This document shows positions 37,591 through 48,401 of a stretch of 64,000 nt of DNA, piece after piece. Origin of the DNA: Bradyrhizobium genosp. L (GTDB taxonomy: Bacteria > Pseudomonadota > Alphaproteobacteria > Rhizobiales > Xanthobacteraceae); the NCBI RefSeq assembly GCF_015624485.1, contig NZ_CP061378.1:2108001-2172000 (forward strand). Reading direction: 5' to 3'. The translations under genes and the position numbers were made by a program. How positions within the stretch are numbered: the stretch's first letter is position 1; the number at the start of each line of letters is the position of its first letter. Below the pieces are notes generated by a model. That model was not told the DNA's origin, searched no databases, and saw only the letters and a program-made list of their open reading frames with translations.

Positions 37591-38859
37591 ATGAGCGAGA
37601 TGGAAACAGCAGCCGGCCCCAAGCAACCGTCGCTCGGCCATGAGATCGTGGCGCGGATCAACGAGCTGGCCGCGATCTCCGAGACGCCGGAGCATCTGGC
37701 GCGCGTGTTCCTCACGACGGAGCATCGCAGGGCCGCCGATCTCATCCTGTCCTGGATGCGCGAGGCCGGCATGAGCGCGCATCTCGATGCGATCGGCAAT
37801 GTCTGTGGCCGCTACGAGGGCGAGCGGCCGGGCCTGCCGGCGCTGATGCTCGGCTCGCATTACGACACCGTGCGCGATGCCGGCAGATGGGACGGCCCGC
37901 TCGGCGTCCTCACCGCGATCGCCTGCGTCGCCGATCTCAATCGGCGCGGCAAGCGATTGCCGTTCGCGATCGAGATCGCGGGCTTTGCCGACGAGGAGGG
38001 CGTCCGCTTCGCCTCGACCCTGCTCGGCAGCCGCGCCATCGCCGGCACCTTTGACGAAAGCGTGCTCGCGACCCGCGACCGCCAGGGCATCTCGATGCGC
38101 GGCGCGCTGCTCGCCTTCGGGCTCGATCCCGATCATATCGGCAAAGCCGCGCGCGCCCGCCGCGAGCTCTCCGGCTATGTCGAGCTGCACATCGAACAGG
38201 GCCCGGTGCTCGAGGAAAAGGGCCTGCCGGTCGGCGTCGTCAGCGCGATCGCCGGCGCGACGCGGCTTGCGGCCAATCTCACCGGCATGGCCGGCCATGC
38301 CGGCACCGTGCCGATGCCGCTGCGGCGCGACGCGCTCGCGGGCGCCGCCGAATGCATCGTGGCGATCGAGGCGTTCTGCAAGACCGATGAAGCGGGCCTT
38401 GTCGGCACCGTCGGCTACATCACCGCGATGCCCGGCGCCACCAATGTGATCCCGGGCAAGGTCTCGTTCACGATGGACATCCGCTCGCAGAGCGACATGC
38501 ATCGCAAGCGCGCGGTCGCCGACATCGTGCGGCGGATCGAGGCGATCGCCAGGCGCCGCGAGCTCGCGTTGCAGATCGACGTCACCCACGAGAACCGCAG
38601 CGTGCCTTGCGCGCCCTGGCTGAAAGCGCAGATCGCGGACGCCGTCGCGGGCGAGGGATTCCCCGTCTTCGAGCTGCCGAGCGGGGCCGGGCATGATGGC
38701 ATGGCGATGGTCGACGTCGCCGACATCGGCATGATCTTCGTGCGCTGCCGCGGCGGGATCAGCCACAATCCGGCCGAGCATGTCGAGCTCGCCGACGCCG
38801 ACACCGGCGCGCGGGTGCTGTTGCGGTTTGTCGAGAATTTCCGGCCGCAGGCGGCCTGA
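37591..38859 (+). CDS. Zn-dependent hydrolase, allantoate amidohydrolase / N-carbamoyl-amino-acid hydrolase family (M20)
   Basis: The 422-residue di-metal amidohydrolase has metal ligands in LGSHYDTV, RWDGPLGVL, GFADEEGVRF, ELHIEQGP and the final SHNPAEHVE. The dimerisation domain with GMAGHAGTVPM is present. The family includes AllC (allantoate to ureidoglycolate) and L-carbamoylases. With puuE and the BMP importer, allantoate is the likeliest substrate. ATG 37591 is chosen; a TTG 42 bp upstream extends the frame but adds no conserved sequence. Confidence 0.88.
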   Translation: MSEMETAAGPKQPSLGHEIVARINELAAISETPEHLARVFLTTEHRRAADLILSWMREAGMSAHLDAIGNVCGRYEGERPGLPALMLGSHYDTVRDAGRWDGPLGVLTAIACVADLNRRGKRLPFAIEIAGFADEEGVRFASTLLGSRAIAGTFDESVLATRDRQGISMRGALLAFGLDPDHIGKAARARRELSGYVELHIEQGPVLEEKGLPVGVVSAIAGATRLAANLTGMAGHAGTVPMPLRRDALAGAAECIVAIEAFCKTDEAGLVGTVGYITAMPGATNVIPGKVSFTMDIRSQSDMHRKRAVADIVRRIEAIARRRELALQIDVTHENRSVPCAPWLKAQIADAVAGEGFPVFELPSGAGHDGMAMVDVADIGMIFVRCRGGISHNPAEHVELADADTGARVLLRFVENFRPQAA

Positions 38860-38881
38860 GCGGCGTGGCGATTCCGCCATC

Positions 38882-38967
38882 CGTCATTGCGAGGAGCGAA
38901 GCGACGAAGCAATCCATCCATCCGCGTGTGCGGGGCGATGGATTGCTTCGCTTCGCTCGCAATGACG
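38882..38967. repeat. Palindromic REP-like element, family A
   Basis: The arms CGTCATTGCGAG / CTCGCAATGACG and an inner AGCAATCCATCC / GGATTGCTTCG dyad form a long hairpin 22 bp after the M20 gene stop. It is recognisable as a very common rhizobial intergenic repeat and may act as a transcript-end hairpin. Confidence 0.88.
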
Positions 38968-38990
38968 GGAGAGGCAGGGATTCAGGCCCT

Positions 38991-39069
38991 GTAGGATGGG
39001 TAGAGCGAAGCGAAACCCATCACCGCACGGCCGCAAAATGATAGGTTTCGCTACGCTCTACCCATCCGA
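38991..39069. repeat. Palindromic REP-like element, family B
   Basis: GGATGGGTAGAGCGAAGCGAAACC (left arm, in part) pairs with GGTTTCGCTACGCTCTACCC, about 30 bp apart. It follows family A by 23 bp. The rest of 38860-39247 contains no gene until the small membrane protein. Confidence 0.85.
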
Positions 39070-39247
39070 CCGACGATCGAGATTTTCGCGCTCGGGTGAG
39101 TTGCTGTCCGGGCAAAAGAAGAAAACTCTCCCCCGACCGCCTACCGGAAAATGCCGTTCCAATCCGGCGTTACAAAAGGCAGTCCGCTACCCTTGCTTCC
39201 GGCCCCCGCATCGCGACATCTTGGACACGTTCCAAAAGGTCCCCACG

Positions 39248-41527: not shown

Positions 41528-41766
41528 CAGTGACGATTTGCAGGGTAGGCATTGGCGCGCCAGTGCCCGCCGCATCTTGTATTCGTCGTGATGGCGGGTT
41601 CGCTGCGCCTTACCAAAATTGCGCAACCGGCCTCACTCCACAACCTTTGCCATCTTGACGACATTCTGTCCGATCGCGCTCGAAGGGACTATGTAATCGA
41701 AACAACCTGTGATAGAATGATCCCGTTGATGTATTCCGCCGATTTGGCTTTCGTCGGAGTGGCACC

Positions 41767-43551
41767 GTGTCGCTTGAATGGATAGCACTTACAGTTGTCG
41801 GGCTCTTGGTTTCCCACACGTCGGCCGCCTTGCTCGGATCGACGATCAAGGATTTCTTCCGGAACCGCTTGCAAAAGAAACCGACCGTTGTCCTCCGGAG
41901 CAAGATTGGCGGTCGGGACACGTTTAAGTTCGACCACTGGGTTTCCGATCTGCCGCACGACCTCGCCAAACAGCTTGAAACGCTCGGCACAGATTTTCTC
42001 ATCAAGAAGGACGGACCGGATCCCGATCTCCTTGATGGCGCTCCCCCGAAGGCTCCGGTCGTGCCCAAGCTCAAGCCCCGTACGATCGACGCGAATTTCG
42101 TGACGGAGAAGTTCGAGCCGGGCGCCGTCGGGACGTTGACCATTACCATTCGACTTCCAACCAGCGCCGTGAAGGGGAAGTGGCAGGGGCAGGCGTTGCT
42201 GCAGCCGGATGGCGGCGCGATCGATGTCATCCTGGAGACCCAGGGTTTCACGCTGGTGTCGGAGCGTCCGCCGCCGGTCGAGGTGTCCGATGAGCGGGAT
42301 ACTCCGCCGATGGCTTTCGAACTGCGCATCGAAGAGAGCAATCCGCGCTGGATACATGTTCTTCTGGTGCAAGGCGGTTCGCCGGTCGGTGAACTGACGA
42401 TCAACGATTTCTCCCAATTGGGGGCGGACGCGGCCCACCGGGCCAGCACAGACTTTCGGCCGAGCAGCGAAGCCGACCTGACCCTCGTCATACGCTCGAC
42501 GGACGGTCGGATCGAAGTTTCGAGTCCTCGCGGGAGAGCGTCTCTCGACCACGTCACCATTTCCGGCTTTCGGTATCCTCAAATGCCGTTCCGCAAGTTG
42601 CTGGCCGGGCGCCTCAAGGACCTCTACGATTCGAAATCAAATCCCGAAGACACCGAGCGCGAGATGAAACTCGTCGGTGCCGAGCTTGCAGGGTGCCTGC
42701 CGCCGGATTTGATCAAGCTGTTGCGCCGTGACGACATCAAATCGATCATGCTGCGTCACGAGGAGGATTTTGATTTCCCCCTCGAGCTGGTGTTCCTGGA
42801 CGACGCGAAGGATCCGTTCTTCATTGGCGATCGAATCGCGATCTGCCGGTGGTTCCTTGGGGTGACGAATCCACCGGATATCGTGGCAAAGAAACTTGCG
42901 AGGGTTGCCTTCCTCAAGGGCACCGACGCGGCGTTCGCCGCCGACGAACGGCTTCTGCAAGGCTTGTTCGGTCAGCAGGCTGAGACGTTCGGCGCGCGAG
43001 GAGAGGTCGTCGAAAAGATCTTCAAGACCGCGAATTTCGACCTGATTCACTTCACCGGCCATTGCCGCCAGAAGGACGATACCCAGGGCGGCCTTGAATT
43101 GGCCGATGGCTCGTTCCTGCGTCTCGGCGACGTCGGGCAACTCGAGGCCGAGCGCAAATTTGCCGCGTCGTATCCTTTCGTGCTCTTGAATGCCTGCGCC
43201 AGCGCCACGCCCTTTTTGGGGCTGACGCAGCGCGACAGCTTCGGACACCGCTTCGTCATGAGCCAGGCCTGCGCCGTCGTCGGGACGCTGTGGCCGGTCT
43301 CGGGACCGATTGCCAATGATTTCGCCCAGCGCTTCTACGCGGCGCTTTCGGCCGAGACGATTGGCCGCGCACTACTCACGGCGAAAAAGGCGCTGGCGGA
43401 TGGCACCGATGCAGGCGGCGCCGACGAGCGACAGAAGGCCTTGCGCAAGCTCGCGCGGCAGGTTGCGGCGCGCAGCTATTGCCTGTTTGCAAATCCCGAT
43501 CTTCGTGTGTCTGGTCTCAAGCAGTTGGAGAAAATCAATGTCGTCAGCTGA
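41767..43551 (+). CDS. CHAT-domain protease with N-terminal membrane anchor
   Basis: The 594-residue protein starts at GTG 41767 (GGAG 7 nt upstream). Residues 5-25 form a membrane helix (WIALTVVGLLVSHTSAALLG). Residues ~40-260 are a beta-rich region of unknown fold. Residues ~285-580 are a caspase-like CHAT domain: catalytic His432 in LIHFTGHCR and Cys477 in VLLNACASATPF, followed by GTLWPVSGPIANDFAQRFY. CHAT proteases act as effectors in bacterial conflict and stress systems. It overlaps the next gene by 14 bp. No other protease target or sensor gene is adjacent. Confidence 0.88.
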   Translation: MSLEWIALTVVGLLVSHTSAALLGSTIKDFFRNRLQKKPTVVLRSKIGGRDTFKFDHWVSDLPHDLAKQLETLGTDFLIKKDGPDPDLLDGAPPKAPVVPKLKPRTIDANFVTEKFEPGAVGTLTITIRLPTSAVKGKWQGQALLQPDGGAIDVILETQGFTLVSERPPPVEVSDERDTPPMAFELRIEESNPRWIHVLLVQGGSPVGELTINDFSQLGADAAHRASTDFRPSSEADLTLVIRSTDGRIEVSSPRGRASLDHVTISGFRYPQMPFRKLLAGRLKDLYDSKSNPEDTEREMKLVGAELAGCLPPDLIKLLRRDDIKSIMLRHEEDFDFPLELVFLDDAKDPFFIGDRIAICRWFLGVTNPPDIVAKKLARVAFLKGTDAAFAADERLLQGLFGQQAETFGARGEVVEKIFKTANFDLIHFTGHCRQKDDTQGGLELADGSFLRLGDVGQLEAERKFAASYPFVLLNACASATPFLGLTQRDSFGHRFVMSQACAVVGTLWPVSGPIANDFAQRFYAALSAETIGRALLTAKKALADGTDAGGADERQKALRKLARQVAARSYCLFANPDLRVSGLKQLEKINVVS

Positions 43552-43831
43552 CAAAGTCATCATCTTCACCAAGAACGCCGACGAATTCGAGCTTCTTGGC
43601 GAGAAGAGCAAGGTGGAGCTTCCGGTCGATGATCTTCGTCGAAACCTCGAAGAGTTCATGAGCGCCTTCAAGGATATCCTGCCAGCGGCCGAGAAGCCTG
43701 CGGCGGGGCTTGGCCTCAAGACGATCTCCGTTGCGCTCGGCATCAACGGCAAAGGCCAGGTCGGTTTTCTCGGAACCGGTGTCGAAGTCGGCGGCAGCGC
43801 GACGTTGACGCTGACCTTCGATCGCAGTTGA
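43538..43831 (+). CDS. Small partner of the CHAT protease (Pepco/TRYPCO-like)
   Basis: The 97-residue protein has an initial beta strand (KVIIFTKNADEFELL), a helix (DDLRRNLEEFMSAFKDIL), then a glycine-rich beta hairpin (LGINGKGQVGFLGTGVEVGG) ending in TLTLTF. The organisation resembles Pepco/TRYPCO small domains, which recur beside caspase-, CHAT- or trypsin-type peptidases. Start ATG 43538 lies inside the CHAT gene with GGAG 7 nt upstream, so expression is coupled. It could be substrate, inhibitor or activity modulator of the protease; none is shown by the sequence. Confidence 0.7.
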   Translation: MSSADKVIIFTKNADEFELLGEKSKVELPVDDLRRNLEEFMSAFKDILPAAEKPAAGLGLKTISVALGINGKGQVGFLGTGVEVGGSATLTLTFDRS

Positions 43832-43876
43832 TGCAGTCGCGACGTCGGTCCGGCGTCCGGGCGCAAACCGCCGACC

Positions 43877-44890
43877 TCACTCCGCCGCCTTCGCCGTCGT
43901 GCCGAACATCCGCGTCGGCGCGGCAAAGCCGCAAGATGTGCCGTCGGTGATTTTGACCTGATCCTCCCACGGCAGGCGGAAGCGGCCGGACACCATGTCC
44001 TGCATGAAGGTGTAGGGGCAGTCCATCGCGCCGCCCTTCACCGCGACGTAGCCGCGGTGCCAGAGCTGATAGATGTTGTTCTCGACGCCCCAGTTGATCC
44101 GCGCCTCGCGCACGAGGTCGGGCCGGACCTCGGCGGTGATGATCTCGTCGACGCGCCCCGTGGTGCCGTGCGCCATGATGCTGCCGTCGAAATTGACGAT
44201 CATGCCTTCGCCCATCGAGTCGAACGAGCCGTCGGAGCCGCACATGCAGACATTGGCCGTCACCATCAGGTTCTGGAATGCATTGGCCTGGTTGGTGAAG
44301 CGCCAGCTCTCGCGGATCGGCGCGGTGTAGCCGGCGGTGCGGATCATGATCTCCGCGCCCTTGTAGGCGCATTCGCGCGCCATCTCCGGGAACATGCCGT
44401 CGTGGCAGATGATCAGCGCGATCTTGGCGCCCTTCGGGCCCTCGATCACGGGAATGCCGACGTCGCCTGGCTCCCACGGTTCGACCGGAATCCAGGGATG
44501 GAATTTGCGGTAGTAGAGCTTGATCTCGCCGTGATCGTCGATGATCAGGCCGGAATTGTAGGGATTGCCGTGCGGGTTGAACTCCATGATGGAGAAGCAG
44601 CCCCAGATCCTGTTGTCGACGCATGCCTTCTTGAACGCTGCGACCTCCGGCCCGTCGAGCCGGCACATGATTTCCGGATTGGTGTCCATCGACAGCCCGT
44701 GCAGGGCGTATTCGGGGAACACAACGAGGTCCATGGTGCCGAGATTGCGCCGGGCCTTGCCGACCATCCAGACGATGCGTTCGGTCTGCCGCGCCAGATC
44801 GGCCTTGGTCGCGACCACGGGCAATTGCAGCTGCACCAGCCCGATCACCACCCCATTGGGTGATTTGTTGAGACCACCAAGCCCGTTCAT
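43877..44890 (-). CDS. amiF: Formamidase / aliphatic amidase (nitrilase superfamily), AmiF-like
   Basis: The 337-residue enzyme has the Glu-Lys-Cys triad: VVFPEYALHG, YYRKFHPWIPVEPW and LIICHDGMFPE. Length and the PEYALHGLSMDT and YQLWHRGYVAVKGG segments match formamidase AmiF and the related aliphatic amidase AmiE. It hydrolyses formamide or short aliphatic amides to ammonia and the acid. ATG 44890 has GGGAGG 3-9 nt upstream. It is divergent from a cysteine hydrolase, with ~160 bp between, suggesting a shared nitrogen-scavenging role. Confidence 0.92.
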   Translation of the reverse strand: MNGLGGLNKSPNGVVIGLVQLQLPVVATKADLARQTERIVWMVGKARRNLGTMDLVVFPEYALHGLSMDTNPEIMCRLDGPEVAAFKKACVDNRIWGCFSIMEFNPHGNPYNSGLIIDDHGEIKLYYRKFHPWIPVEPWEPGDVGIPVIEGPKGAKIALIICHDGMFPEMARECAYKGAEIMIRTAGYTAPIRESWRFTNQANAFQNLMVTANVCMCGSDGSFDSMGEGMIVNFDGSIMAHGTTGRVDEIITAEVRPDLVREARINWGVENNIYQLWHRGYVAVKGGAMDCPYTFMQDMVSGRFRLPWEDQVKITDGTSCGFAAPTRMFGTTAKAAE

Positions 44891-45783: not shown

Positions 45784-46311
45784 CTAGCCCCTCGCCGCGG
45801 GCACGGGCGGCACCGGCAGAATGATTTCGGAAGCGACCTTCCAGTCCTTTCCGACGCGAAGCCAATTGATGATCATGAGAAACGGCCTGGCTGTTCCATC
45901 CTGCCCCGCATAAGAGACCGTGATGTTCATCGGCACGTAGGACTCGGCGACGTCACGTGTCAGGCCGACAACCCTGAGCTTCGAATAATCTGGCTCGAGC
46001 ACGACCGGACCGGAGCTGCCGATATCATGCAGCTTTTGATCAATTGCCTCGTTGCCCCAAAAACCGGCCCAGTTCCCCTCGGACTGGATCGCGCTCTTGG
46101 CCACCAACAGTGTCGAGGACGATTGCCAGAACATCCCATGCAGAGCCTTGAAATCGTGCTTGTTGGCCAATTCCATCAACCTGCCGAACTTCGATCTTAT
46201 CGCGCTGAGCGTGGCAGCATCCAGCGGCTCTTCCTTGACGGCGGGAGCAGCCGCGACGGCCCCGATGGCAAGAGCCGAGGCAGCGAGAGTGGCAAGAAGC
46301 GTCTTGTACAT
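45784..46311 (-). CDS. Secreted SnoaL/NTF2-like protein
   Basis: The 175-residue protein has a Sec signal (MYKTLLATLAASALAIGAVA, cut after AAA) followed by an NTF2-fold-like domain (GRLMELANKHDFKALHGMFW near the start, FLMIINWLRVGKDWKVASEI at the end). Such proteins bind small hydrophobic ligands or act as non-catalytic scaffolds; no function is assigned. It sits 142 bp downstream of the alpha/beta hydrolase gene on the same strand, separated by a strong hairpin, so it is probably expressed less or separately. Confidence 0.75.
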   Translation of the reverse strand: MYKTLLATLAASALAIGAVAAAPAVKEEPLDAATLSAIRSKFGRLMELANKHDFKALHGMFWQSSSTLLVAKSAIQSEGNWAGFWGNEAIDQKLHDIGSSGPVVLEPDYSKLRVVGLTRDVAESYVPMNITVSYAGQDGTARPFLMIINWLRVGKDWKVASEIILPVPPVPAARG

Positions 46312-46420
46312 GCTGGAGTTTCCCTTCGAACGTCTGGCTCGCGCCATGACAAGACCCGTTGCGTTCCGCGATTGGCCATCGCGGTCCGAGGCGCTCCGCA
46401 TTCCCTGAGTGAGCGTGCGT

Positions 46421-46446
46421 GCTCCCGGCGCGAAAGCGCCGGGAGC
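46421..46446. terminator. Strong hairpin after the alpha/beta hydrolase gene
   Basis: A perfect 11-bp GC stem (GCTCCCGGCGC / GCGCCGGGAGC) is closed by GAAA (TTTC on the transcribed strand). It lies 7 bp beyond the hydrolase stop. No T-run follows, so it may attenuate or stabilise mRNA rather than terminate fully. Confidence 0.6.
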
Positions 46447-46453
46447 GGTACCG

Positions 46454-47224
46454 TCACTTCACGAGCGCCGCCTTTTCGATGACTTCAGCGACTTGCTTCG
46501 CATGAACGACGAGCGAGGCGTGGCTGCCGGCGACTTCCGTCGTCTGAGCCTTGATCCTGGCTGCGAACGACTTCTGCGCCTCGGGCGCGAGGACTTTGTC
46601 TTTGGTGCTGATGACATAGAACGTCGGCTTGTCACGCCAGGCCGCGATGTCGACGGGAGCTTCGAACGCAACGTGGTTTAGCGGAAGCTGCGAGTTGGCC
46701 AGGTGCTCGGCGATTTCCGGAGGAAGGTCAGCCGCGACGGCTGACGGAAACACCTTGGGGTCGATGTACAGATTGCCCTTCGCATCGGGATGGATCGCAT
46801 TGCCGCCTTCGGTCGGCGGGCCTGCTTTGGCCAGCGACGCCAGGGATTCACCGATATCCGGCGCGAAAGCGGAAACATAGACCAGCGCCGACACCTTTGG
46901 ATCGCTGCCGGCTTGCGTGATCACCACGCCGCCCCAGGAGTGGCCGACCAGAACGGTCTTGCCGTTCTGCTTCGCGAGCGCCTGTTTGGCGGCGTCGACG
47001 TCAGCGGCAAGGGAGGTGAGCGGATTTTCGACGAGCGTAACGTTGTAGCCCTTCTTCGTGAGAATATCGGCAACGGGCTGCCAGCTCGTCTGGTCCACGA
47101 AAGCGCCGTGCACGAGTACGATGTTGTGGGCCGCTCCGTTGGGCAGCTCGGCGGAATGGACGGAGCCGGCCAATGTCGTTCCGGCCAGAAGTACGGTGGC
47201 GGCTGAGAGCAAGATATTTCGCAT
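46454..47224 (-). CDS. Secreted alpha/beta hydrolase
   Basis: The 256-residue enzyme has a signal peptide (ILLSAATVLLAGTTLAGSVH, cut near SAE), oxyanion segment IVLVHGAFVDQTSW, nucleophile elbow VGHSWGGVV, and the catalytic His in AGSHASLVVH. It resembles small esterases with the VHGAF opening. ATG 47224 is chosen (AGGAA upstream). It is divergent from an AraC regulator, which likely controls it. Substrate is unknown. Confidence 0.88.
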   Translation of the reverse strand: MRNILLSAATVLLAGTTLAGSVHSAELPNGAAHNIVLVHGAFVDQTSWQPVADILTKKGYNVTLVENPLTSLAADVDAAKQALAKQNGKTVLVGHSWGGVVITQAGSDPKVSALVYVSAFAPDIGESLASLAKAGPPTEGGNAIHPDAKGNLYIDPKVFPSAVAADLPPEIAEHLANSQLPLNHVAFEAPVDIAAWRDKPTFYVISTKDKVLAPEAQKSFAARIKAQTTEVAGSHASLVVHAKQVAEVIEKAALVK

Positions 47225-47375
47225 CGATTGTTCCTGTTGGCGTATCGGACGAACACGGTCCGGGGAATGGACAGGCGTTTCCAGCAAGGTCGCGGTTCTT
47301 CCATGTGCCATCGGCGAAATGGTTGCCGTACGTGACGTCGGCCCGCCGCGGCATGACCTAGTGCGCGGACCTTTT

Positions 47376-47419
47376 GGACGATAGGGAGCAATCGTCCGGA
47401 TGTTGTGTCCGATCGTCCG
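47376..47419. promoter_or_regulatory. Candidate AraC binding sites (ATCGTCC repeats)
   Basis: GGACGAT (47376-47382) and ATCGTCC (47391-47397) form a 7+7 inverted repeat with 8-nt spacer. ATCGTCCG recurs directly at 47412-47419, exactly 21 bp after the copy at 47391. Two-turn spacing of direct half-sites suits AraC-type monomers with two HTH motifs. It lies between the divergent hydrolase and AraC genes. Confidence 0.55.
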
Positions 47420-47438
47420 CCGGCCTAGTCTCGGCGAC

Positions 47439-48401
47439 ATGGACATACTCGCCCAGGTGCTCGATCGCGTTCGTCTCGGCGGGACGCTGCTCTTTCATTT
47501 CGAGCTCGGCCATCCCTGGAATCTGGAGTTGCCGGCGCGCCCTTACGCCCTGTTTCACTATCTCAGCCGTGGCTCGGCGACCCTTGCGCTCGGACAGGGA
47601 CCGGAGATCCAGATGACGGAGGGCGATTTTGTCGTCATCACGCGCGGCGAGCCCCATGTGTTTTATTCGGATCGCCGGGCCAAGCCTTTGCAGATCATCG
47701 ATATCGATCGATCGTCGCCGCGGCTTGGCGTTGTTCGTCACGGCAGTCGTGCAAAACCGCTCTCGACCATGATCTGCGGCAATTTCACCGTCTCACGGCC
47801 GCTGTTCGGGAGCGTGCTGGAGCTGCTTCCGCCCGTGCTGCTGCTGAAGCCGACGGCGGACGGTGAGTGGCTTGAAGCGATCCTGCGTCGCATGGTCAGC
47901 GAGTCCGCGCTTGAGCGTCCCGGCCAACGCGTCGCGCTCTCACGATTGACGGAAGTGCTCTTTGTCGAGGTGTTGCGAAACTGGATCAAGTCTCTCGGTC
48001 CCGGAGAAGGCGGATGGCTCGGGGCGATATCGGACCCGCATATCGGGCCCGCACTCAAGCTGATCCACGAAAACCCGGAGCGGCCCTGGGCGCTGAGCGA
48101 CCTCGGCCAGCACGTGGGGCTCGGCCGCTCGGCATTCTCGGCCCGTTTCACCAGGCTCGTCGGCCAGTCCATGCATCGCTATGTCATCGGGCGACGGATG
48201 GCAGAAGCGGCGTTCCTGCTCGAAACCAGCGACGAGCCGATCGCACGAATTGCGAGCCGGGTCGGTTACGAGACGGCGGCGGCGTTTTCGAAGCTGTTCC
48301 AACGGCATCACGGACTGTCGCCTGGCCGGTACCGAGCGGCTCGACGATCTGACGGCGGAGGAAGGCAAGGGGACGTTCGGGAAGCAGAAGTTGCCGAATG
48401 A
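47439..48401 (+). CDS. AraC-family transcriptional regulator with cupin-type ligand domain
   Basis: The ~320-residue protein has an N-terminal cupin-like domain (GDFVVITRGEPHVFYSD) and two C-terminal HTHs (ALSDLGQHVGLGRSAFSARF; PIARIASRVGYETAAAFSKLF). It ends with the family FQRHHGLSPGRYR box plus an unusual basic/acidic tail. This architecture is common for regulators of nearby reductases or hydrolases. ATG 47439 is preferred over a TTG at 47400, which would overlap the candidate binding sites. Confidence 0.9.
   Translation: MDILAQVLDRVRLGGTLLFHFELGHPWNLELPARPYALFHYLSRGSATLALGQGPEIQMTEGDFVVITRGEPHVFYSDRRAKPLQIIDIDRSSPRLGVVRHGSRAKPLSTMICGNFTVSRPLFGSVLELLPPVLLLKPTADGEWLEAILRRMVSESALERPGQRVALSRLTEVLFVEVLRNWIKSLGPGEGGWLGAISDPHIGPALKLIHENPERPWALSDLGQHVGLGRSAFSARFTRLVGQSMHRYVIGRRMAEAAFLLETSDEPIARIASRVGYETAAAFSKLFQRHHGLSPGRYRAARRSDGGGRQGDVREAEVAE

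Follow-up and report, generated by a model that had tools for sequence, protein, structure and literature searches.

How is a bacterial caspase-like protease kept silent, and how is it switched on? To our knowledge this has been worked out for few systems, and a compact locus of Bradyrhizobium genosp. L raises the question again. We analysed a stretch of 64,000 nucleotides of this genome (NZ_CP061378.1, positions 2,108,001 to 2,172,000; hereafter the window), in which a CHAT protease gene runs directly into a gene for a small protein of the Pepco family. The pair is a real two-gene cassette that recurs in other genomes, has been acquired, and is simpler than most of its relatives. The reading we prefer, with a probability of roughly 0.55, is that of a horizontally acquired two-gene module of the caspase superfamily, of the conflict or stress kind, in which a membrane-tethered effector would be paired with a dedicated regulatory subunit.

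Both open reading frames (ORFs) and their overlap lie where a preliminary description, made from the letters alone, had placed them. The CHAT identity proposed there for the first product was confirmed by Pfam (PF12770, 44.6 bits against a cut-off of 24), and the second product exceeds the cut-off for Pepco (PF24393, 70.4 bits against 27). The suggested likeness to Pepco/TRYPCO domains held for Pepco and failed for TRYPCO, since Pfam at E up to 1 matched the small protein to Pepco alone; Trypco1 was found neither in the own genome nor in any of the 96 genomes searched, with no separate search made for Trypco2. On the related question of EACC1, Pfam returned Pepco alone, from a library not checked for an EACC1 model, and NCBIfam matched neither window protein. 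The features of the cassette are as follows.

41767 to 43551, forward strand: CHAT protease gene, 594 amino acids (aa), GTG start, Pfam CHAT E 1.6e-11
41782 to 41838, forward strand: probable single membrane anchor, residues 6-24, hydropathy 1.82
42073 to 42402, forward strand: predicted eight-stranded beta domain, residues 103-212, from AlphaFold2 (predicted local distance difference test, pLDDT, ~77)
42994 to 43404, forward strand: CHAT domain by Pfam, residues 410-546
43060 to 43062, forward strand: codon of catalytic His432, from alignments
43195 to 43197, forward strand: codon of catalytic Cys477, from alignments
43538 to 43551, forward strand: 14-bp overlap of the protease and Pepco genes
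43538 to 43831, forward strand: Pepco gene, 97 aa, ATG start, Pfam PF24393 E 2.2e-19 over residues 21-96
43751 to 43789, forward strand: CHAT-partner signature KGQV...LGTGVEV, Pepco residues 72-84

Is the first product likely to be a working protease? His432 and Cys477, described earlier as intact, are invariant in 10 of 10 rows in each of two overlapping CHAT alignments, which also take in proteins lacking a detected Pepco neighbour (L003, L010 and L020 in one, L003 and L020 in the other), and from these intact residues the product is predicted to be an active cysteine protease. Its protease part is modelled with a fold like those of Csx29/TPR-CHAT and separase, a separase/CHAT fold spanning residues ~200-584 (Foldseek and VIA matches to Csx29 and separase), with Csx29 as the best Foldseek match. 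The protease sequence matched no PDB chain at E up to 1, and its model found nothing at E < 0.001 in a viral structure library. As for the N-terminal part, the membrane anchoring proposed earlier is plausible from hydropathy (best 19-residue value at residues 6-24; 1.99 in the closest counterpart described below) and was not confirmed by the AlphaFold2 model, which is without confidence at residues 1-99. The beta-rich region that had been placed between anchor and protease gained eight predicted strands, read as a beta-sandwich, and no Pfam match; its structure matches were weak and Ig-like only.

Two identities for this beta region were tried, and we claim neither. L020 carries DUF7363 in the same place, where the window protein has no Pfam match; against profiles of L020, L003 and L010, 2 of 60 shuffles reached the score and the hhalign probability was below 1%. 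The C-terminal domain of the actinobacterial upstream proteins considered below fared no better, hmmsearch in both directions returning decoys only; a single local profile match, 23 columns long and with a probability of 4%, did better than all 60 shuffles.

Comparison with the closest counterpart, an anchor-beta-CHAT gene followed by Pepco on an 18.5-kb IMG/VR contig (L007; Pepco 69% identical), indicates how the two genes have evolved. Across the beta and protease regions 304 of 483 residues are identical, with a nonsynonymous rate (dN) of 0.31 and a synonymous rate (dS) of 2.24, and in Pepco 67 of 97 (dN 0.21, dS saturated), whereas the first 100 residues of the protease share 18 of 90 aligned positions. 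These dN/dS values argue that neither frame is a chance ORF, and the sequences suggest that protease and Pepco are held by selection while the anchor region drifts or adapts. We labelled the L007 contig prophage-like; it also encodes a head maturation protease (PHROG E 6.5e-18) and a dCTP deaminase. Beside its cassette (L007:1135-2744), a protein with a HELGH motif, seen by eye and without Pfam or PHROG match, may together with the dCTP deaminase be further defence cargo.

The two-gene module was horizontally acquired, as a comparison of the insertion site within the genus indicates. It occupies a 2.35-kb islet:

41528 to 43878, no strand: inserted islet with the cassette, flanked by genes for a Cons_hypoth698 membrane protein and a carbon-nitrogen hydrolase

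In six of eight same-genus loci, fetched as stretches from genomes matching the hydrolase-region DNA, the flanking gene ends (41527 and 43879 in the window) are 14-142 bp apart and the islet is absent; the contig ends in one of the remaining two, and the upstream gene is non-adjacent in the other. The DNA of the carbon-nitrogen hydrolase region matches 110 of 117 genomes of the genus, and the protease is present in 1 of 265, its own. Within the family it was found in 3 of 198 genomes, which besides the own one are two with distant copies (E 1.2e-12 and 7.6e-11). Pepco turned up in 2 genomes out of 385 at class level and 2 out of 398 at phylum level, in both cases counting the own genome. GC content is 0.606 and 0.578 in the cassette genes and 0.548 in the upstream spacer, compared to 0.62-0.69 in the neighbours from 35004 to the hydrolase, and at third codon positions (GC3) 0.74 and 0.72 compared to 0.84-0.90; because genes at 45784-48401 share the low GC3 (0.72-0.73), composition alone is a moderate argument for acquisition.

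Beyond the cassette the islet holds no further convincing ORF, a 77-aa frame at 41552-41785 having no Pfam match, and, in line with the earlier description, no gasdermin gene was found among the islet ORFs and flanking families. The own genome contains a single Pepco gene, whose caspase-superfamily neighbour is the CHAT gene directly upstream; because the same genome has 12 C14 caspase matches and two CHAT matches above cut-off, this Pepco appears to belong to the CHAT gene of the window. The further CHAT match sits in a 1084-aa frame. A second variable spot lies at 38850-39116 of the window, ~0.27 kb long here versus ~1.45 kb in the same-genus locus L052, where the insert holds a PAS/histidine-kinase-type gene (L052:1558-2796; Pfam PAS_4 and HATPase_c).

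Does Pepco accompany proteases elsewhere? Searches with the Pepco family model took in ~1,000 genomes overall, loci being taken with 1.5-kb flanks, and a survey covered 200 genomes from the family to which the Streptomyces source of L014 belongs. Pepco was present in 18 of the 200, and in 14 of these 18 it adjoins a caspase-superfamily peptidase, which answers the earlier concern that the small gene might not consistently co-occur with proteases. The neighbour was CHAT in two (L078 and L065, the latter being the L014 locus again) and C14 at Pfam E up to 0.001 in 12 (L067-L074, L077, L079-L081); L082 showed iHD-CE without a C14 match, L076 a 123-aa frame without match, and L075 and L083 no neighbour match among only two and one neighbouring frames scanned, respectively. 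A peptidase neighbour is thus usual for Pepco, not universal. At their C-terminal ends the C14 partners differ, several carrying iHD-CE, L067 HSP70 and L081 a DnaG zinc finger. A C14 gene also adjoins the second Pepco of the L016 genome (L066, outside the 18) and that of Azospirillum L011, so that Pepco-C14 resembles a fixed pairing whose other parts can be exchanged. Pepco stands directly before C14 in L067, L081, L068, L070-L072, L074, L079 and L011, the last with a weak HATPase match.

These C14 loci resemble the window in an above-cut-off Pepco and an adjoining caspase-superfamily peptidase, and differ in having Pepco first, a C14 peptidase, in some cases fused iHD-CE, HSP70 or DnaG parts, and no CHAT-type motifs. 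The EACC1-caspase systems described by Kaur et al. 2020 (PMC7159879) likewise join a small constant protein to a caspase-superfamily peptidase, whereas in the window the small protein is Pepco, the peptidase gene comes first and a fused variable C-terminal effector is missing. Pepco is not mentioned in the available parts of Kaur 2021 (PMC8195603) or PMC10907252. Titles and abstracts of open-access literature, among the matches listed, likewise offered no description of it.

The CHAT-then-Pepco order occurs in nine further loci (L007, L009, L013-L018 and L078). Six of them, from Vineibacter (L013), Streptomyces (L014 and L016), Paractinoplanes (L015 and L017) and Acidobacteria (L018), came from a scan built on three CHAT-linked Pepco sequences and had the CHAT gene directly upstream in 6 of 6, a scan that favours CHAT-linked Pepco and is unfit for measuring how often Pepco goes with CHAT. 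The Streptomyces plasmid locus L009 and L078 bring the CHAT-linked set to 10, including the window. The Pfam CHAT cut-off is passed by 9 of the 10 proteases, L017 reaching 20.5 bits versus 24 (E 3.6e-4). Five of eight gene pairs measured overlap (4-29 bp) and three are spaced by 9-52 bp, some gene starts having been picked by us among several. A pattern scan of IMG/VR for CHAT relatives gave none, in a procedure that misses some, L007 being there and found via Pepco; phage records yielded no Pepco, and plasmid records one Hymenobacter CHAT with no Pepco found near and one Streptomyces Pepco.

What differs among these loci is the upstream side. The actinobacterial, acidobacterial and Vineibacter pairs share gene order and Pepco motifs with the window; in place of its single anchor they carry an upstream membrane protein, an nSTAND2 ATPase or an FHA domain. 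Across the eight relatives in which this side was seen, six have an extra gene (L009, L014-L018), in L013 the FHA domain replaces the anchor (E 3.9e-15), and only L007 is window-like; the unusual simplicity claimed earlier therefore stands against most relatives and is not unique. In L009 and L014-L017 the extra gene encodes a protein of 683-862 aa, multi-pass by eye, and the four of these five that were scanned had no Pfam match up to 0.01; in L018 it encodes the nSTAND2 ATPase (E 5.2e-13). When the last 165 residues of the five membrane proteins were made into a profile, it recovered the C-terminus of the L018 ATPase (E 5.2e-14; best decoy 0.36), which points to a coupling domain shared by both kinds of upstream protein; the beta region of the window was not recovered with it. 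Upstream of the acidobacterial pair (L018:21-6511), a 1606-aa HEAT-repeat/AAA protein stands with the nSTAND2 ATPase, perhaps a four-gene version.

Pepco itself seems to be marked by its partner. All 10 CHAT-linked Pepco proteins carry two motifs, KG[QT][VI] and LG[ST]G[GV]E[LV], and neither motif is present in any of the 19 others (n = 29); both were picked after inspection of the same 29 sequences, so that a fresh set is needed. In a tree of this set, which left out L083 (short match), the window, L007 and L013 are separated from the rest (support 99) and the other seven CHAT-linked Pepco proteins are grouped (support 98).

How might the pair work? We propose that the CHAT/separase-fold cysteine protease would be held at the inner membrane by its N-terminal anchor, with the beta domain as a joint, and that Pepco, a small non-enzymatic protein, would be its dedicated regulatory subunit, adaptor or brake, sitting on the protease probably via its partner-specific C-terminal strand-loop. 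A signal at the membrane, picked up by the N-terminal part together with the beta domain, would change the complex, and the protease, released or positioned, would cleave cellular targets and lead to growth arrest or death. Pepco is cast as a regulatory subunit because of its small size, the overlapping frames, its partner-specific segment and its use with different peptidases. The name Pepco we take to mean 'peptidase co-occurring' domain.

Several observations weigh against this reading. The anchor is weak. PADLOC finds nothing for Pepco, and the protease matches BovA weakly and in part (E 0.0055, residues 472-548 only). Four of the 18 survey loci have no peptidase Pfam match, and Pepco lies beside a Sel1-repeat gene in L006/L085 and directly after a patatin-like phospholipase gene in L008/L086 (L086:8310-9769), in both cases with no peptidase found adjacent, as judged for L085 and L086 by the CHAT model and by ORF lists read by eye; from the patatin case, Pepco may serve other effectors too. 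A single clade of CHAT-linked Pepco had to be given up, the split from the others having a support of only 45. The Pepco structure model has a pLDDT of 67, and its fold search gave no structural match at E < 1. Ten flanking genes or frames showed no known defence family, so the site is not a defence island; the families there are transporter parts, M20-type hydrolase, LysR, Cons_hypoth698 (which we take to be YeiH-type), carbon-nitrogen hydrolase, isochorismatase, alpha/beta hydrolase and AraC. Overall, the interpretation in the preliminary description, a compact conflict or stress cassette, is partly supported.

Borvo, which we assume to be a single-gene system without Pepco, also uses a CHAT protease (BovA), and L007 matches its profile, for which no curated cut-off is given, somewhat better than the window protein does (E 2.7e-5, residues 486-616). 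A strict form of the brake is toxin-antitoxin-like, with a protease harmful by default and Pepco as its labile inhibitor; the two-gene islet, the overlapping genes and the rare, accessory nature of the pair fit such an arrangement, but the effector gene stands first and Pepco is kept beside many different caspases with their own fused domains, and we regard it as doubtful.

Somewhat less probable is that Pepco is the substrate, cut by activated CHAT to give a fragment acting as signal or effector. The analogy is Craspase, whose TPR-CHAT protease Csx29 has the CHAT/separase fold and His/Cys pair in common with the window protease and, according to PMC10028731, cuts Csx30, the product of a gene in its own locus. 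The glycine-rich segment specific to CHAT-linked Pepco could be the cut site; however, C14-paired Pepco lacks that segment, and Pepco has only 97 residues and no effector domain. The patatin-linked Pepco, with no adjacent peptidase, disfavours a role as mere peptidase substrate. The partner in the window is Pepco rather than Csx30, no TPR was found by Pfam at E up to 1 (as described earlier), strands being predicted at 103-212, and no Cas7-11 or CRISPR gene was found in the islet, whose flanks belong to other families, the rest of the genome not having been searched.

We consider it unlikely that the pair signals at the membrane to control gene expression and not to kill, by analogy with the transmembrane anti-sigma factor DdvA, whose solved structure was matched and which is likewise a membrane protein with a CHAT-like fold: no sigma-factor gene was found in the islet or among the flanking genes scanned, and the structure match is confined to the protease fold (model residues 232-575). 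That the pair is inert or decaying cargo without present function is very improbable, since its presence in 1 of 265 genus genomes and the absence of a sigma-70-like promoter match (one promoter type scanned) are set against open frames, intact catalytic residues and a low protease dN/dS versus L007.

Returning to the regulated membrane effector, we tentatively extend it to a broader scheme, to which we give less credence: Pepco could serve bacterial caspase-superfamily proteases in general as a small regulatory subunit, and CHAT-Pepco could be a portable effector core with interchangeable sensors (anchor plus beta domain, FHA, multi-pass protein or nSTAND2), attached partly via the shared C-terminal coupling domain. 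The window would then hold the most reduced form, with sensing inside the protease chain, perhaps by gene fusion.

The pair resembles the self-destruct or stress switches of bacteria in a pared-down form. With two genes in 2.35 kb, intact catalytic residues and a matched partner, it is a very small test case for how such proteases are switched, and module swapping around one protease-partner core predicts which part senses and which part executes. The locus could give a first function to the catalogued Pepco family.
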